64,000 nucleotides of DNA from Falsiroseomonas bella (lineage in GTDB: Bacteria > Pseudomonadota > Alphaproteobacteria > Acetobacterales > Acetobacteraceae), in assembly GCF_003173615.1 (NCBI RefSeq), contig NZ_QGNA01000001.1:992001-1056000 (forward strand), written 5' to 3'. Both the position numbers and the translations under genes were made by a program. Shown piece by piece: positions 8,960 to 55,934 of this stretch. The notes beneath the pieces were generated by a model. The model ran no database searches. It was not told the DNA's origin and was given only the letters and a program-made list of their open reading frames with translations. How positions within the stretch are numbered: the stretch's first letter is position 1; each line of letters starts with the position of its first letter.

Positions 8960-9391
8960 AGCCGTCACGCCGGAACGAGGCGCCTCGGCTCATCGGCCGC
9001 CGCGTAATATAATATCGGCGAGCCTTTCTGGTGATCCGATGGCGGCCCGCGCAATGTGCGCGGGCCGAGCGGCCGAATGGCCGCCGCCGCTTGTCCGGCG
9101 TCTGAGGGCGTTTTCGGGTCACCGAAAACGCACACCGGTATAAGCCCTCACGCCGCAGGATTGCGCTGATCCTGCTACTGCGCTCCAGCGGCGCCTCTTT
9201 CGCTCCTAGAGCCTCGCGGTGCCGCCGCGCGCGCGGCTTCGAGCACATCGCCGTCGCTGACATCCGCCCGCCACCTGCGCCGGCGGAGCGACCGGCCGTC
9301 GCGCGCAGCAGCGGGACCGGCGCGCCCTTCACGTGGCGGCTCAAACCGCGGGTTGCGCTGCGGCGCCGCGCATCGCCCGCGGCCTATCGCG
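8960..9391. other. 432-bp gene-free gap between parB and typA
   Basis: The gap between parB and the convergent typA holds one full copy of the multi-hairpin repeat family (9012-9142). The remaining 250 bp (9143-9391) is GC-rich with no convincing coding frame, promoter or terminator. A core TTCACGTGG at 9326-9334 resembles half of a parS site but is too degenerate to call. Confidence 0.7.
9012..9142 (+). repeat. Multi-hairpin repeat, copy A
   Basis: About 130 bp made of consecutive inverted repeats: a GGCCCGCGC stem, then GCGGCC-GAAT-GGCCGC (9069-9084), then CGCCGC-TTGT-CCGGCG (9085-9100, one mismatch), a TCTGAGGGC box, and a GCGTTTTCGGGTCACCGAAAACGC hairpin. The reverse complement of copy B at 55.1 kb matches almost base for base at both ends, but copy B carries an extra internal segment. 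It lies downstream of parB. Confidence 0.88.
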
Positions 9392-15454: not shown

Positions 15455-15485
15455 TCGCGACGGCTCGTTTGCGCGGTCGGTCGTG

Positions 15486-15524
15486 CCCCCACCCCGACCC
15501 TCCCCCGCACTGCGGGGGAGGGAG
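15486..15524. repeat. GC-rich dispersed hairpin repeat, copy 1
   Basis: A C-run followed by a near-perfect hairpin with arms CCCTCCCCCGCA and TGCGGGGGAGGG. An almost identical copy is at 39974-40012. Similar elements are scattered in many proteobacterial genomes. Here it fills the 83-bp gap between the convergent AEC permease and lyase genes, where it can act as a bidirectional terminator. Confidence 0.85.
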
Positions 15525-35269: not shown

Positions 35270-35400
35270 GTCGAAAGCTGGCGGCCCGCGCAGCGGGCCG
35301 AGCGCCCGAATGGGCGCCGCGGCAAGTGCCGCGAAGCCAAGCGCGCGGAGCGCGCGCGTCACGCCGAAGGCGTGCCTGCGGCACGACGCGTCTGAGGGCA
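35270..35400 (+). repeat. Multi-hairpin repeat, copy C
   Basis: It fills most of the 150-bp gap between coaE and dnaQ. It runs GGCCCGCG stem, GCGCCC-GAAT-GGGCGC (35302-35317), CGCGGC-AAGT-GCCGCG (35318-35333), GCCAAGCGCGCGGAGCGCGCGCG, CACGCCGAAGGCGTG, then the TCTGAGGGC box. The arms differ from the other copies but remain paired. The dnaQ start follows within 10 bp, so the element lies in its leader. Confidence 0.87.
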
Positions 35401-35407
35401 CCATAAA

Positions 35408-39957: not shown

Positions 39958-39973
39958 CGCCGGTCCGGTCGCA

Positions 39974-40012
39974 CCCCCACCCCGGCCCTCCCCCGCACTG
40001 CGGGGGAGGGAG
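39974..40012. repeat. GC-rich dispersed hairpin repeat, copy 2
   Basis: Nearly identical to the element at 15486-15524: a C-run plus the CCCTCCCCCGCA/TGCGGGGGAGGG hairpin. It lies in the 67-bp gap between the Smr gene and the XRE gene. Its right arm (GGGAGGGAG) is about 12 bases before the XRE start codon and may double as the ribosome-binding region or mask it. Confidence 0.83.
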
Positions 40013-46998: not shown

Positions 46999-48315
46999 TC
47001 AGTCGCCGGCCGCGACCCGTCCTGCGGCGCGGTTCTGGTTCGCGGCCTCGCGCGGCACCGTCTTCTGGATGCGCTCGAAGGTCGCCAGCGCCTGACCGAC
47101 CACCTGGTCCATGTTGTAGTAGCGGTAGGTGGCGAGCCGCCCGACGAACCAGGTGTCGGCCTCGGCATCGGCCAGCGCCTCGTACCGCTTGTAGAGCGCG
47201 GCGTTCTCGGGGCGCGGGATCGGGTAGTAGGGATCGCCTTCCGCGCTCGGGTATTCGTAGGTGACGCTCGTCTTCGGATGCGTCTGCCCCGTCATCCACT
47301 TGTACTCGGAGACCCGGGTGAAGGGCGTCGCCTCGTCCGGGTGGTTCACCGTGCCGGTCGGCAGCGCCCATTCGCGGTCCAGCGTCTCGTGCCGGAAGCG
47401 CAGGCTGCGATAGGGCAGCTTGCCGAAGCGGAAGCCGAAGTATTCGTCCACCGGGCCGGTCCAGACCAGGCGACGAAAGGCGAAGCGACGGCGCGCGTCC
47501 TCGAACGGCATGCCGGTGCAGACGGTGATCAGCGGATGATCCAGGATGCGCCGGAACATCGCGGTGTAGCCCTCGGCGGGCATCGCCTGGAAGCGGTCGG
47601 TGAAGTAGCGGTCGTCTCGGTTGGTGCGCGTCGGCACGCGCGCCGTCACGGACTTGTCCAGCTCGCTGGGGTCGAGCGCCCACTGCTTGCGCGTGTAGCC
47701 GCGGAAGAACAGCTCGTAGAGCTCGCGGCCGACCTTGCCGACGACCACGTCCTCGCTCGTGCGGACCTGGTCCACCTGCTCCGCCCGCGAGGCCAGCCAG
47801 GACTCCACGTCGTCTTCGGTGAGGCTCAGGCCGTAGAGGCGATTGATGGTGTCGAGGTTGATCGGCATCGGCACCTGCATCGTCTCGCCGGTCGCGGGGC
47901 TCTTCACCTCCGCCAGCACGCGGTGCTCGTAGGGGCGCCAGCCGGTGAAGCGCGACAGGTACGAAAAAATCTGCTCGCTGTTGGTGTGGAAGATGTGCGG
48001 GCCGTAGCGATGGATCAGCACGCCCGCGGCATCGAGGTGGTCATAGGCGTTGCCGCCGATATGGTCGCGCCGGTCCACCACCACCACGCGCTCGCCACGC
48101 TGCGACGCGATCCGTTCGGCAAGCACCGCACCGGCGAAGCCGGCGCCCACGATGAGCCAGTCATATCCGGCGCACGAAGGCTTCGCCTTCGTGCCCTCAG
48201 TCGCCGGCGCGCCTCCGGCGCTTGGCTGCGCCGCACTTGCGGCGGCCGCCATTCGGCGGCTCGGCCGGCCGAAGCCGGCCGCAGGTCGGACCTTGCTGCC
48301 CCAGCTGTCAGACAT
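46999..48315 (-). CDS. glf: UDP-galactopyranose mutase with in-frame repeat
   Basis: 438 residues. Glf ring-contracts UDP-galactopyranose to UDP-galactofuranose for surface glycans. After about 50 extra residues, YDWLIVGAGFAGAVLAERI is the FAD Rossmann motif; family blocks GPHIFHTN, FTGWRPYEHRV and GYTRKQWALDP are all present. The extension (residues 9-48) is translation of a multi-hairpin repeat in the reading frame, not family sequence. Start MSDSW overlaps the glycosyltransferase stop by 8 bp, so the two form an operon. Confidence 0.9.
   Translation of the reverse strand: MSDSWGSKVRPAAGFGRPSRRMAAAASAAQPSAGGAPATEGTKAKPSCAGYDWLIVGAGFAGAVLAERIASQRGERVVVVDRRDHIGGNAYDHLDAAGVLIHRYGPHIFHTNSEQIFSYLSRFTGWRPYEHRVLAEVKSPATGETMQVPMPINLDTINRLYGLSLTEDDVESWLASRAEQVDQVRTSEDVVVGKVGRELYELFFRGYTRKQWALDPSELDKSVTARVPTRTNRDDRYFTDRFQAMPAEGYTAMFRRILDHPLITVCTGMPFEDARRRFAFRRLVWTGPVDEYFGFRFGKLPYRSLRFRHETLDREWALPTGTVNHPDEATPFTRVSEYKWMTGQTHPKTSVTYEYPSAEGDPYYPIPRPENAALYKRYEALADAEADTWFVGRLATYRYYNMDQVVGQALATFERIQKTVPREAANQNRAAGRVAAGD
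48172..48289 (-). repeat. Multi-hairpin repeat, copy D, inside glf
   Basis: 118 bp in the coding sequence near the glf start. On the glf strand it reads GCCGGCTTCGGCCGGC, then GCCGCC-GAAT-GGCGGC (48245-48260), CGCCGC-AAGT-GCGGCG (48229-48244), GCCAAGCGCCGG, the ACTGAGGGC box and a GCACGAAGGC-GAAGCCTTCGTGC hairpin. The frame stays open across the whole element. The match to intergenic copies A, B, C and F identifies it as an insertion. Confidence 0.87.
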
Positions 48316-49513
48316 GCGTCGCCCCCGCCGCGCGAGCGCGCGCCGGCACGGGCGATCCGGCGCCGCTGCGTCGCGCTCGCGCCGCCGCCGCCTCCCGCAG
48401 CAGTGTCGCCATGCGCGCCCAGGTGCGGTCCCAGGATCCGGCGGCGAGGCGCGCATCCACCCGCGCCTGCCAGGTGGCGCGCGGGCGGTGCAACAGCAGT
48501 TCCAGCCGCTCCGCCATGCCGGCGGCATCCGACGCGATCTCGACCAGGCCCGCATCGCCGTAGTCGCGCACCACGTCGATCACCGGCGTGGAGACCACGG
48601 GCAGGCCGGCGGCCAGGAACTCCGGCGTCTTGGTGGGGCTGATGAAGCGCGTGCTCTCATTCAGCGCGAAGGGCATGAAGCCGAGGTCCCAGTGCGCCAG
48701 CTGGTCCGGCAGCTCGCGATAGTCGCGCGCACCGAGCCAGTGCAGGTTCGGCGCCTGGGGCAGCGCGGCCGGATCGATCTTCACCACCGGCCCGATCATG
48801 CAGAAGGACCAGTCGGGCCGGAGCGCCGCGAGGTCGGCCACCAGGCCGAGGTCCATGCGCTCGTCCACCACGCCGAAGAAGCCGATGCGCGGATGCGGGA
48901 TCGCGGCGAGGCCGGCGGGCTCCGGCGGCCGGCTGCGGGCGCGGCCGAAATGCGCGGCGTCGATCGAGGAGGGGAAGCAGTGGACGGCGGCGTGCCGGCC
49001 GCGCTTCGCCTCGAACAGGCTGCGCCCGCCGGTGAAGACGAGGTCGGCGCGGCCCAGCAGGCGCCGCTCCATCTCCAGCATCTGCGGCGGCGCGCCGCGG
49101 AATGCGGAGAGCTCGTCCATGCAGTCATAGACCACCACGGCGGGGGCGAGCCCCTCGGCCACGGGCACGAACATCGGCGAGTAGTACCAGGCGATCAGCG
49201 GCCGCGCGCCGCGCAGCGCGAGCGCGGCTTCCAGCAGGGCACGCTGCGCGGCGAGCGCAGGCTCCGGCGCCATGCCGCGCGGCAGCACCGGGCGGAGCAC
49301 CGTCACGCCTTCCGCCCGCGTGGAGCGGTCGAGGTGCGGGGCGGGCGTGTCCTCCTCCACCGGTTCCTCGAGGAACAGCACCTCATGCGTGGCCGCGGCG
49401 CGGACCATCAGCTGTTGCGGACGCTGAAACACGAAATCCCATCGCAGATGCGACAGGACGAGAAGCACCGGGCGCAGGTCGCCGGCCACTGGACAAGGCG
49501 GAGCCTCGTTCAT
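48308..49513 (-). CDS. Glycosyltransferase
   Basis: 401 residues from the ATG at 49513. Glycogen-phosphorylase-like GT-B fold suggested by VLSHLRWDFVFQRPQQLM at the N-terminus and the C-terminal ISPTKTPEFLAAGLPVVSTPVIDVV acceptor/donor region; the donor site block F-S-PTK resembles GT4-type enzymes. Likely transfers a sugar (perhaps galactofuranose from the adjacent Glf) to a surface polysaccharide; the acceptor is unknown. C-terminus is basic and Ala-rich. Confidence 0.82.
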   Translation of the reverse strand: MNEAPPCPVAGDLRPVLLVLSHLRWDFVFQRPQQLMVRAAATHEVLFLEEPVEEDTPAPHLDRSTRAEGVTVLRPVLPRGMAPEPALAAQRALLEAALALRGARPLIAWYYSPMFVPVAEGLAPAVVVYDCMDELSAFRGAPPQMLEMERRLLGRADLVFTGGRSLFEAKRGRHAAVHCFPSSIDAAHFGRARSRPPEPAGLAAIPHPRIGFFGVVDERMDLGLVADLAALRPDWSFCMIGPVVKIDPAALPQAPNLHWLGARDYRELPDQLAHWDLGFMPFALNESTRFISPTKTPEFLAAGLPVVSTPVIDVVRDYGDAGLVEIASDAAGMAERLELLLHRPRATWQARVDARLAAGSWDRTWARMATLLREAAAARARRSGAGSPVPARARAAGATHV

Positions 49514-49702
49514 CCTCAGTCTCCCATGGTCAGGTGGACCAGCGGCCGGGGCAGGGCGCAACGCGCCGCGCGGCAAAGTCGGCGCCGCTGCCCTGGAACG
49601 CCTGGACGTCCTGGATATCGCGGAAACGCGCGGTGTCGCGCCGCGGTTCCGGTGCGGCGCATGGCCGCGGGAGAGTGGCTGCCCTGCGCTACGCGCGCCG
49701 GT

Positions 49703-50422
49703 TCAACGCATCGGCGGCGCCAGAACCTTGTCGCGGTAGTTGCATTGCGCGACCGCCGGGCAACGCCAGCATTCCGGCATCCGCGCCTTGCACACATAGC
49801 GCCCGTGCAGGATCAGCCAGTGATGCGCGTCCCGCAGCAGCTCGGGCGGGCATTTGCGGACCAGCGCCTCCTCCACCGCGCGCGGCGTTTTGCCGGGCGC
49901 GAGGCCGGTGCGGTTGCCGAGGCGGAAGATATGCGTGTCCACCGCCATCGTGTCCTGCCCGAAGGCAACGTTGAGCACGACATTGGCCGTCTTGCGCCCG
50001 ACGCCGGGCAGCGCCTCCAGCGCGGCGCGGTCGGCCGGCACCTGCCCGCCATGCTGCTCCACCAGCATGCGCGCCAGCGCGGCGACGTTGCGCGCCTTGC
50101 CCTGCCAGAGCCCGATGCGGCGGATATAGGGGCCGATCCCGGCCTCCCCCAGCGCGGCCATCGCGGCAGGGGTGGGGGCGGCCTCGAACAGGGCGGGGGT
50201 GCATTTGTTCACCGCCGCATCGGTGGTCTGGGCCGAGAGCACGACGGCAACCAGCAGGGTGAAGGGGTCGCTGTAGAGCAGCTCGGTCTCGGGCGCCGGG
50301 TTCGCGACGGCAAGGGCGCGTAGGAATTCGCCGGCCTGTGCCGCGTTCATGGCGCGGGCGCGGCGCGGGGCATGGGCGCTGCCATGCAGCGGCGTGGCGG
50401 TCTTGGATCTGGCGCGAGGCAT
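49703..50422 (-). CDS. nth: Endonuclease III
   Basis: 239 residues. DNA glycosylase/AP lyase for oxidised pyrimidines. The HhH motif LPGVGRKTANVVLN (with the catalytic lysine in the middle), the catalytic aspartate in VDTHIFRLGNR, and the [4Fe-4S] cluster C-x6-C-x2-C-x5-C (CKARMPECWRCPAVAQC, near the end) are all seen. An N-terminal basic extension of about 20 residues is atypical, so a start at residue 25 is possible. Confidence 0.94.
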   Translation of the reverse strand: MPRARSKTATPLHGSAHAPRRARAMNAAQAGEFLRALAVANPAPETELLYSDPFTLLVAVVLSAQTTDAAVNKCTPALFEAAPTPAAMAALGEAGIGPYIRRIGLWQGKARNVAALARMLVEQHGGQVPADRAALEALPGVGRKTANVVLNVAFGQDTMAVDTHIFRLGNRTGLAPGKTPRAVEEALVRKCPPELLRDAHHWLILHGRYVCKARMPECWRCPAVAQCNYRDKVLAPPMR

Positions 50423-50457
50423 GGCTTCGGTGCAGAGCTACCGTAGAGTGTGACGCG

Positions 50458-50964
50458 ATGTCAGGGGTGGGGAAGGTGGTGCTGTTCGAGGCGGTGACCC
50501 GCCCGCCGGGCGGTCTTTCCGCGCGCGGCATGCGCTGGCTCTGCGGGCTTGCGGGCGCGGCCGCGCTGGTGCCGGCGGTGCTGTTCGCGGTGCTGGGCGC
50601 CTGGCCGGTGCTGGGTTTCCTGGGCGGGGAGCTGGTGCTGGTGCTCGGCCTGGTGGCGCTGCACCGCCGCTGGAACCGCGCGGCGGAGGAGACGATCCTG
50701 CTGACCGAGGACGGGCTGCTGGTGCGGCGCAACGACGGCCGCGGCGGGCGCGAGGAGACCCGGCTCGATCCCTACTGGGCGCGGGTGGAGCTGGAGGAGC
50801 GACCCGGTGCGGTGCCGGTGCTGCGCGCGCAGGCGCGCGGCCGCAGCGTGGAAATCGGGCGCTACCTGTCGCCGGAGGCGAAGCAGGACCTGGCGATGGC
50901 GCTGACGGGAGCGTTGCGGAGCTATCGCTCGCCCAGCTTCGACAACCCGCAGTTGCGGGATTGA
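50458..50964 (+). CDS. DUF2244 membrane protein
   Basis: 168 residues. N-terminal two hydrophobic helices around residues 25-65 (GMRWLCGLAGAAALVPAVLFAVLGAW and LGGELVLVLGLVALHRR) and a soluble C-terminal domain with ETILLTEDGLLVRR and a YLSPEAKQDLAMALTGALR segment, as in DUF2244. Function unknown. Divergent from nth with 35 bp between the starts. Confidence 0.85.
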   Translation: MSGVGKVVLFEAVTRPPGGLSARGMRWLCGLAGAAALVPAVLFAVLGAWPVLGFLGGELVLVLGLVALHRRWNRAAEETILLTEDGLLVRRNDGRGGREETRLDPYWARVELEERPGAVPVLRAQARGRSVEIGRYLSPEAKQDLAMALTGALRSYRSPSFDNPQLRD

Positions 50965-50988
50965 CATCAATGCCCGCGGATCGTGACC

Positions 50989-51112
50989 GATCCGCCCTCA
51001 ATCGCCGGCGCGGGCCTGCGTGCGCTTGGCTACGCGCCACTTGGCGCGGCGGCCGTACGGCCGTTCGCCCGCGTTCCGCGGGCGCAGGTCACGATCGTGG
51101 GATTCGGTGAGA
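50989..51112 (-). repeat. Multi-hairpin repeat, copy F
   Basis: Between the convergent DUF2244 and XRE genes. On the minus strand: GCGCCCGCGGAACGCGGGCG, then CGGCCG-TA-CGGCCG (51050-51063), CGCGCC-AAGT-GGCGCG (51033-51048), GCCAAGCG, and the ATTGAGGGC box. The third hairpin has entirely different arms from copies B, C and D but keeps the AAGT loop. Confidence 0.85.
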
Positions 51113-55074: not shown

Positions 55075-55239
55075 TACCGGTGTGCGTTTTCGGTGACCCG
55101 AAAACGCCCTCAGACGCCGGCGCTCGCATCCGCTCGCTTGGCTACGCCGCACAAGCGGCGGCGGCCATTCGGCCGCTCGGCCCGCGCACAGTGCGCGGGC
55201 CGCCATCGGATCACCAGAAAGGCTCGCCGGTCTGATATC
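55074..55239 (-). repeat. Multi-hairpin repeat, copy B (longest)
   Basis: About 165 bp, the reverse complement of copy A at both ends. It starts within the stop codon of the preceding gene. Hairpins: a ATACCGGTGTGCGTTTTCGG stem, CGCCGC-ACAA-GCGGCG (55145-55160), GCGGCC-ATTC-GGCCGC (55161-55176), then GGCCCGCGCACAGTGCGCGGGCC. It has an extra inner segment of about 27 bp relative to copy A. Ends at 55239, next to copy E. Confidence 0.88.
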
Positions 55240-55322
55240 GGGCGGACGAAGGATTCACCTTCGTCGCCTCAGACGCCGGCGCTGCGCCTGGCTTCGCGCC
55301 ACGTGGCGCGGGCCGCGCGCTA
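55240..55322 (-). repeat. Multi-hairpin repeat, partial copy E
   Basis: Directly behind copy B. It contains GACGAAGG-ATTCACCTTCGTC, a TCTGAGGC box, GCGCCGG and CGCGCC-ACGT-GGCGCG. Its right end lies at the stop codon of the DUF3775 gene (55320-55322), so the element or its remnant touches the gene's 3' end. Confidence 0.72.
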
Positions 55323-55739: not shown

Positions 55740-55820
55740 GGCACCCCCCTTCCTGTCTGGCGACATTAGAACCGGGATCGGCGGCCGGTTCCATCTCTCC
55801 CGTGCTGCGCCTTGCATGCC

Positions 55821-55927
55821 GGGCAGGCCGATCAGGACCTTCGGGGCTGACGCCCCTCCGGTCATCGGCGCCCTGTATGTCGGCGGGCCGATTCAGACCT
55901 TCGGGGCTGACGCCCCTCCGGCCATCG
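55821..55927. repeat. Two-unit 60-bp tandem repeat
   Basis: Units at about 55821-55867 and 55881-55927 are in register at exactly 60 bp and share GGCCGAT-CAG-ACCTTCGGGGCTGACGCCCCTCCGG-CATCGG. Each contains a GGGGC-TGAC-GCCCC hairpin. They fill the gap between the AKR stop (55935) and the DUF3775 gene start. Only two units, so not a CRISPR. A related but different repeat type from the multi-hairpin family. Confidence 0.85.
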
Positions 55928-55934
55928 GGCCGCG

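Follow-up and report, generated by a model that had tools for sequence, protein, structure and literature searches.

We analysed a 64,000-nucleotide window of the Falsiroseomonas bella genome (contig NZ_QGNA01000001.1, positions 992,001 to 1,056,000 of the forward strand), in which glf, the gene for UDP-galactopyranose mutase (GLF), carries a copy of a dispersed, structured repeat near its 5' end (Table 1). The predicted GLF protein matched TIGR00031 with an E value of 2e-106 and 356 bits (cut-off 304), the alignment beginning at residue 51, and its best match in the PDB was 3hdq (E value of 1e-167). This gene was the sole strong glf match in the genome. An initial annotation, made from the sequence alone, had proposed that a repeat lies in frame inside glf. 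This was borne out by our analysis, which found the frame uninterrupted from the ATG at 48315 through the copy and identified the copy as one member of a dispersed family.

Read in the sense of the gene, glf begins with ATG TC, followed by TGA, the element (48307-48164), a second TGA and CTGG. Together with the two flanking TGA duplicates, the inserted segment spans 48161-48310 and adds a net 147 nt (49 codons) to the gene, corresponding to residues 3-51 of GLF. The copy had been placed at codons 9-48 (48172-48289), which is only its inner part; the claim that all 40 of those residues come from the repeat was right about their origin and too narrow in extent, 49 residues having been gained. 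The copy folds more strongly than shuffled sequence (z of -4.1 and -4.2 for the two strands, equalled by 0 of 200 shuffles), and its hairpins are listed in Table 1. In an AlphaFold2 model of GLF, residues 1-48 had predicted local distance difference test (pLDDT) scores below 50, residues 51-60 had a mean of 92, and the first strand comprised residues 51-56. The 49-residue N-terminal tail is probably disordered and tolerated.

Table 1. Features of the glf locus, and other copies of the repeat family in the window (positions are those of the window)
Feature	Position	Strand	Basis or remark
glf, UDP-galactopyranose mutase	46999..48315	-	438 aa; TIGR00031 and 3hdq matches
glf start codon, ATG	48313..48315	-	5' of the insertion; within ATGTCTGA, where it overlaps the upstream stop over 8 nt
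Upstream glycosyltransferase gene	48308..49576	-	TuaH-like match that scores under the NCBIfam cut-off; the proposed insertion target is its stop codon
5' TGA duplicate, the upstream glycosyltransferase stop	48308..48310	-	Sequence
Inserted element, 144 nt	48164..48307	-	Gene sense is the reverse of the CTTGGCT-reading orientation; alignment includes 37 further full-length copies
Hairpin near the 5' end, arms GGCCGGC/GCCGGCC	48263..48280	-	Folding and copy alignment
Hairpin, arms GCCGCC/GGCGGC, loop GAAT	48245..48260	-	Folding; two-sided changes among copies in 4 of 6 pairs
Hairpin, arms CGCCGC/GCGGCG	48229..48244	-	Folding and pair changes among copies
Terminal hairpin, GCACGAAGG/CCTTCGTGC	48172..48194	-	3' arm doubles as part of the family-consensus terminal inverted repeat
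3' TGA duplicate	48161..48163	-	Forms ATGA with the last A of the element, out of the glf frame here
Family copy	9031..9132	-	Flanks TTA..TTA, by eye
Family copy	35278..35407	-	Between co-directional predicted genes
Family copy	50965..51101	+	Directly 3' of the stop of the open reading frame (ORF) 50338-50964
Two tandem family copies	55080..55317	+	Second begins at the TGA ending the first (by eye)

Comparison with relatives revealed the empty state of this site. We found glf in 13 of the 14 congeners searched, and the element was absent from all 13 (G labels denote genomes and L labels denote loci below). GLF begins with MFDW in 11 of these congeners; in G005 and G008 it starts 14 residues earlier, which gives a short tail without visible repeat similarity. 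The alignment with relatives proposed in the initial annotation therefore came out as anticipated, with the inserted residues missing from every congener, and those two short tails were the nearest that any congener came to the repeat-free extension that would have spoken against an insertion. The overlap of the glf ATG with the upstream TGA, ATGNNTGA (ATGTYTGA, 8 nt), is kept in all 13 congeners and in one genome of another genus, and in each of these genomes the upstream frame was the best-scoring frame at the overlap. Before insertion, the site therefore held a single TGA, the upstream stop, which the insertion duplicated. Separately, we observed a family copy in G008 (L195, C98:3928-4061) lying approximately 1.4 kb upstream of its repeat-free glf (C98:1304-2485).

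The family to which the glf copy belongs is abundant. Searches of the F. bella genome returned at least 35 matches to the glf copy, itself included, and at least 42 matches to a typed consensus, copy numbers from such searches being lower bounds. A contiguous 464 kb sample contained 20 copies recognized by a hidden Markov model (HMM), the glf copy among them, or about 43 copies per Mb; extrapolation from this sample gives roughly 250 copies per genome. The typed consensus was matched in all 15 genomes of the genus. Across the Acetobacteraceae, 68 of 249 genomes and 37 of 102 genera had matches at E ≤ 1e-3, a good part of them weak, in a survey that scored at most three candidates per genome.

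To describe the element, we used 43 full-length copies, which were picked from fetched loci of the genus by similarity to the typed consensus. Full-length copies extend from consensus position 12 or earlier through position 140 or later, duplicates were removed, and G008 and G011 supply many of the copies. They measure 136-179 nt including both duplicates, mostly 136-152 nt, and have at least four hairpins. An alignment of 38 of them (five were excluded) contained at least four common hairpins, with two-sided compensatory changes in 13 of 28 consensus pairs. The consensus derived from it carries terminal inverted repeats of 16 nt, TACCNGGCGCACGAAG/CTTCGTGCGCCNGGTA, with one variable position, as is characteristic of miniature inverted-repeat transposable elements (MITEs). 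Rfam gave no match above the gathering score in the window, and only two sub-threshold microRNA hits, neither within the repeat, in six loci. The ends of the consensus could conceivably adopt either of two mutually exclusive folds, in which the 3' arm of the terminal hairpin pairs with the other arm of that hairpin or with the terminal repeat at the 5' end. Near the middle of L321, L322 and L323, all from G232, we also noticed a stand-alone 45-nt palindrome that consists of the family terminal repeat and terminal hairpin only, with a second palindrome (GATACCGGGCTGCC...) close by. The 45-nt palindrome is possibly a minimal or ancestral unit of the family.

Copies of the family are concentrated at stop codons. 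Identical trinucleotides are present at the two ends of 30 of the 43 full-length copies, as a target duplication would leave them, and comprise 26 TCA (TGA in the opposite sense) and four TGA; pairs of TTA also occur, seen by eye in the genus and found outside it. Twenty-eight of the 43 copies, including 23 of the 30 with matching duplicates, lie exactly at the stop of a coding-like frame, defined as an open frame of at least 60 codons with G+C content at the third codon position (GC3) above that at the first and above that at the second by 0.2. Among other TGAs in the same loci, 91 of 2242 (4%) were at such stops. A frame control at the right-hand TCA detected the coding signature in frame in 24 of 33 cases, against 2 and 3 of 33 for the two remaining frames. 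Measured against the non-genic TGAs of the sample (354 stops and 734 others, which gives an expectation of 33%), the 23 of 30 copies at stops corresponded to a p value of 9e-7. Codon statistics trained on the F. bella genome placed 13 of 18 full-length copies from other genera at stops, one of them a TAA stop with a TAA duplication. By manual count, 18 of the 20 copies in the 464 kb sample have a gene that runs into them and ends no more than 30 nt from the HMM hit. For at least 117 of 135 distinct HMM copies, a gene running into the copy stops within 100 nt of it, a count that has no control and in which one copy may count in both directions.

The copies at stops also alter the start of the following gene. 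Fourteen full-length copies at stops have a co-directional downstream gene, and in 11 of them the downstream frame opens with an ATG whose A is the last base of the element and whose TG comes from the second TGA. Those 11 copies have an A or a G immediately 5' of the first TGA, as an ATGA or GTGA overlap would leave. Overlaps of 4 nt were found at 78 of 261 co-directional TGA junctions in the genome sample; compared with this background (p = 2e-4), stop/start overlaps are in excess among co-directional copies at stops. Two of these sites have both filled and empty alleles. L071 is filled in G008 and empty in three congeners, as a GTGA overlap in G002 and ATGA overlaps in G007 and G000. L075 is filled in G003 and empty in five, with GTGTGAGCGAC in G002 and G001, GTGA in G000 and G007, and TTGA in G008. 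At both sites, a start that was originally GTG, according to the closest empty allele, is now ATG. In a wider set of HMM copies, those in reverse orientation with a co-directional downstream start showed ATGA in 28 of 34 cases. A Shine-Dalgarno-like motif, TGAGG(GG), is conserved and lies, in the family consensus, 31 nt 5' of the rebuilt ATG, a distance of approximately 8 nt with the terminal hairpin looped out (by eye). These features may be taken to suggest a mobile intercistronic module that seeks and rebuilds stop/start overlaps in operons, brings its own re-initiation signals, converts coupled gene pairs to independent initiation and has given GLF a new tail, a proposal that we regard as tentative and rather doubtful.

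We consider it quite probable that the family is a non-autonomous structured mobile repeat that targets TGA (TNA), mostly at stop codons, and that an 8-nt gene overlap makes glf read through its copy. The element would insert into TGA, more generally TNA, and duplicate those three bases. On a TGA stop, this duplication would preserve the stop and leave the upstream gene intact. At a 4-nt overlap (NTGA), the terminal A of the element and the second TGA would build a new ATG, and both genes would survive and gain a structured spacer. At the 8-nt overlap of glf, the upstream stop was likewise kept and the glf start was left before the insertion. On this reading, the repeat lies inside glf because the TGA that it hit, which ends the upstream glycosyltransferase gene, falls within an 8-nt overlap with the glf start. 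With its start 5' of the insertion, glf must read through the element, and the net length of 147 nt and the open frame mean that it can, which would yield an enzyme with a 49-residue N-terminal tail. The glf frame would stay open with only 3 of the 43 full-length copies, the glf copy included, so the in-frame outcome is unusual for the family and was probably kept by selection.

Several observations weigh against this interpretation. Fifteen of the 43 full-length copies are away from any recognized stop codon, a matching duplication is missing in 13 of the 43, and divergent genes flank one copy among the 20 of the 464 kb sample. In the glf copy, the inverted repeat at the 5' end has decayed, as judged from its alignment with the family. 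Among forward-oriented copies of the wider HMM set that have a co-directional start downstream, only 3 of 23 showed ATGA; set against the figure for reverse-oriented copies, this indicates that start rebuilding is a property of one orientation. Gene calls came from custom scripts based on GC3 and codon usage rather than from a standard gene finder, and the AlphaFold2 model of GLF is mediocre overall (mean pLDDT of 67, 27 sequences).

The bias towards stops may reflect target choice, later selection for a role of the RNA, or both. An alternative is that selection alone placed the copies there, with random insertion into TNA and the loss of copies that broke genes. Approximately 91% of the sample was called coding, so most random hits would be purged, and a stop with its TGA duplicated is a harmless site. 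Against this explanation, the 23 of 30 copies at stops exceed the 33% expected among non-genic TGAs, and stop/start overlaps are over-represented among the co-directional sites. Post-insertion selection on an RNA role could still account for the excess. We therefore give selection alone an appreciable chance of being the full explanation, although one well short of even.

We think it unlikely that translation of glf starts at the methionine of codon 22, which lies within the element, or that this strain carries glf as a dead gene. The ATG at codon 22 is present and in frame, as the initial annotation had pointed out. Against these alternatives, the first ATG retains the overlap and the G-rich leader found in congeners, glf is full length, the genome has no other strong match to it, and its nonsynonymous divergence from the nearest congener, G007, is well below the synonymous divergence (dN of 0.067, dS of 0.358), as expected of a working gene, with the proviso that this divergence may largely predate the insertion. 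Among the first 60 codons, ATG, GTG, TTG, CTG, ATT, ATC and ATA occur only at codons 1, 22, 55 and 56, and codons 55 (ATC) and 56 (GTG) are already part of the first Rossmann strand. Initiation immediately 5' of the Rossmann motif, which would have removed the repeat from the protein, thus has no candidate codon. With no in-frame start between codon 22 and this strand, a working GLF must hold at least 30 repeat-derived residues whichever ATG is used. We infer that translation would begin at the first ATG and that the tailed enzyme would be active.

The initial annotation had also likened the copy to Rickettsia palindromic elements (RPEs), and a stronger form of this idea is that the family is a unit suited to in-frame coding insertion, of which glf is one of many fusions. 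The likeness holds in part: both are palindromic, approximately 150 bp long and able to fuse in frame with a host protein, as a review describes for RPEs (PMC10969869), and proteins with an N-terminal RPE-1 are reported to be expressed in vivo (PMC3733652). The glf copy is in frame and open, is absent from relatives, and lies in a gene that has been retained, with a tail predicted to be disordered. A habit of inserting into coding sequence is not supported, although no systematic tally was made of intragenic copies elsewhere. The family occupies the stop itself in 28 of the 43 full-length copies, lies near stops in most HMM copies and would rarely be compatible with the glf frame; coding fusion would arise at gene overlaps longer than 4 nt. 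The family thus differs from RPEs in its usual location. We consider the RPE-like explanation very unlikely.

Repeats that supply stop codons are already known: the termini of GTAG repetitive extragenic palindromes (REPs) provide TAG stops (PMC3733652), 36 copies of the pneumococcal BOX each encode a gene's stop codon (PMC3049150), and two genes take their stop from Coxiella QMITE1 (PMC5896051). Contact between a repeat and a stop codon is therefore not new in itself. That the terminal TGA and ATG are likewise element sequence rather than target, with truncated flanking genes that take their stop from the element, is nevertheless hardly credible here, as the empty alleles at three sites show a TGA stop and an overlapping start before insertion and the middle base of the trinucleotide differs by site (TCA, TGA, TTA/TAA). 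Unlike our family, BOX and QMITE1 are not described as duplicating a stop or rebuilding an overlapping start in the available text of those two papers. Nor did our literature searches on stop-codon-targeting repeats and on this family find a description of stop duplication with reconstruction of an overlapping start, the repeats encountered there providing stop codons or being close to them. GTAG and CGTC REPs differ further in consisting of one hairpin of 20-40 bp that bears a GTAG or CGTC tag, compared with 136-179 nt and at least four hairpins here, and a paper on these two superfamilies reports that CGTC repeats are missing in Acetobacteraceae. The domain of the REP-associated tyrosine transposase (RAYT) of GTAG REPs, PF01797 (Y1_Tnp), was found in none of the 15 genus genomes at an E value of 1e-3, compared with 5 of 14 control genomes.

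We infer that the element most likely moves in the manner of a MITE, by a transposase and with a three-base TNA duplication. It resembles MITEs in size, terminal inverted repeats, 3-bp duplication, presence or absence among congeners and strong folding. It differs from them in being G+C rich, in having several internal hairpins and in lying mostly at stops and stop/start overlaps, and no parental insertion sequence was found for it. Insertion sequences of the IS1031/IS427 type, within the IS5 family, make TNA duplications. No sequence of this type with the ends of our family was found here, and the type is not established as the mover. Matches to DDE_Tnp_1 occurred at two loci of the F. bella genome, and by eye the ends of L160 are unlike those of the element (L161 was not read, and other transposase families were not searched).

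Other repeats in the window provide additional context. The stop of ORF 50338-50964, which immediately precedes a family copy, is conserved in position to within one residue in 12 of 14 congeners (TAG in one of them), and by eye no copy lies in the 170 nt past this stop in 13 of the 14, G007 included. In G013 (L314), the stop of the counterpart of this ORF is immediately followed by separate family copies, apparently a tandem pair. The tandem pair at 55080-55317 has the look of a family copy inserted into the duplicate left by another. A second dispersed repeat (CCCCCACCCC..CCCTCCCCCGCACTGCGGGGGAGGGAG) is present at 15478-15524 and 39966-40012, the two copies being 94% identical, and a stretch similar to it flanks the family copy of L003. 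A 60-bp unit forms two tandem repeats at 55807-55928.

The proposed mechanism explains how a repeat comes to be inside glf: the targeted stop codon happens to overlap the start of the next gene. Ribosomes are reported to stall at E. coli REPs that lie within 15 nt of a stop (PMC12306157, citing its reference 17), which makes an effect of family copies on the upstream gene possible. The very way in which the element inserts can make it harmless at operon junctions, a property relevant to the spread of repeats through gene-dense genomes and to the uncoupling of coupled genes. Junctions with filled and empty alleles in congeners make the effect on coupling directly testable.
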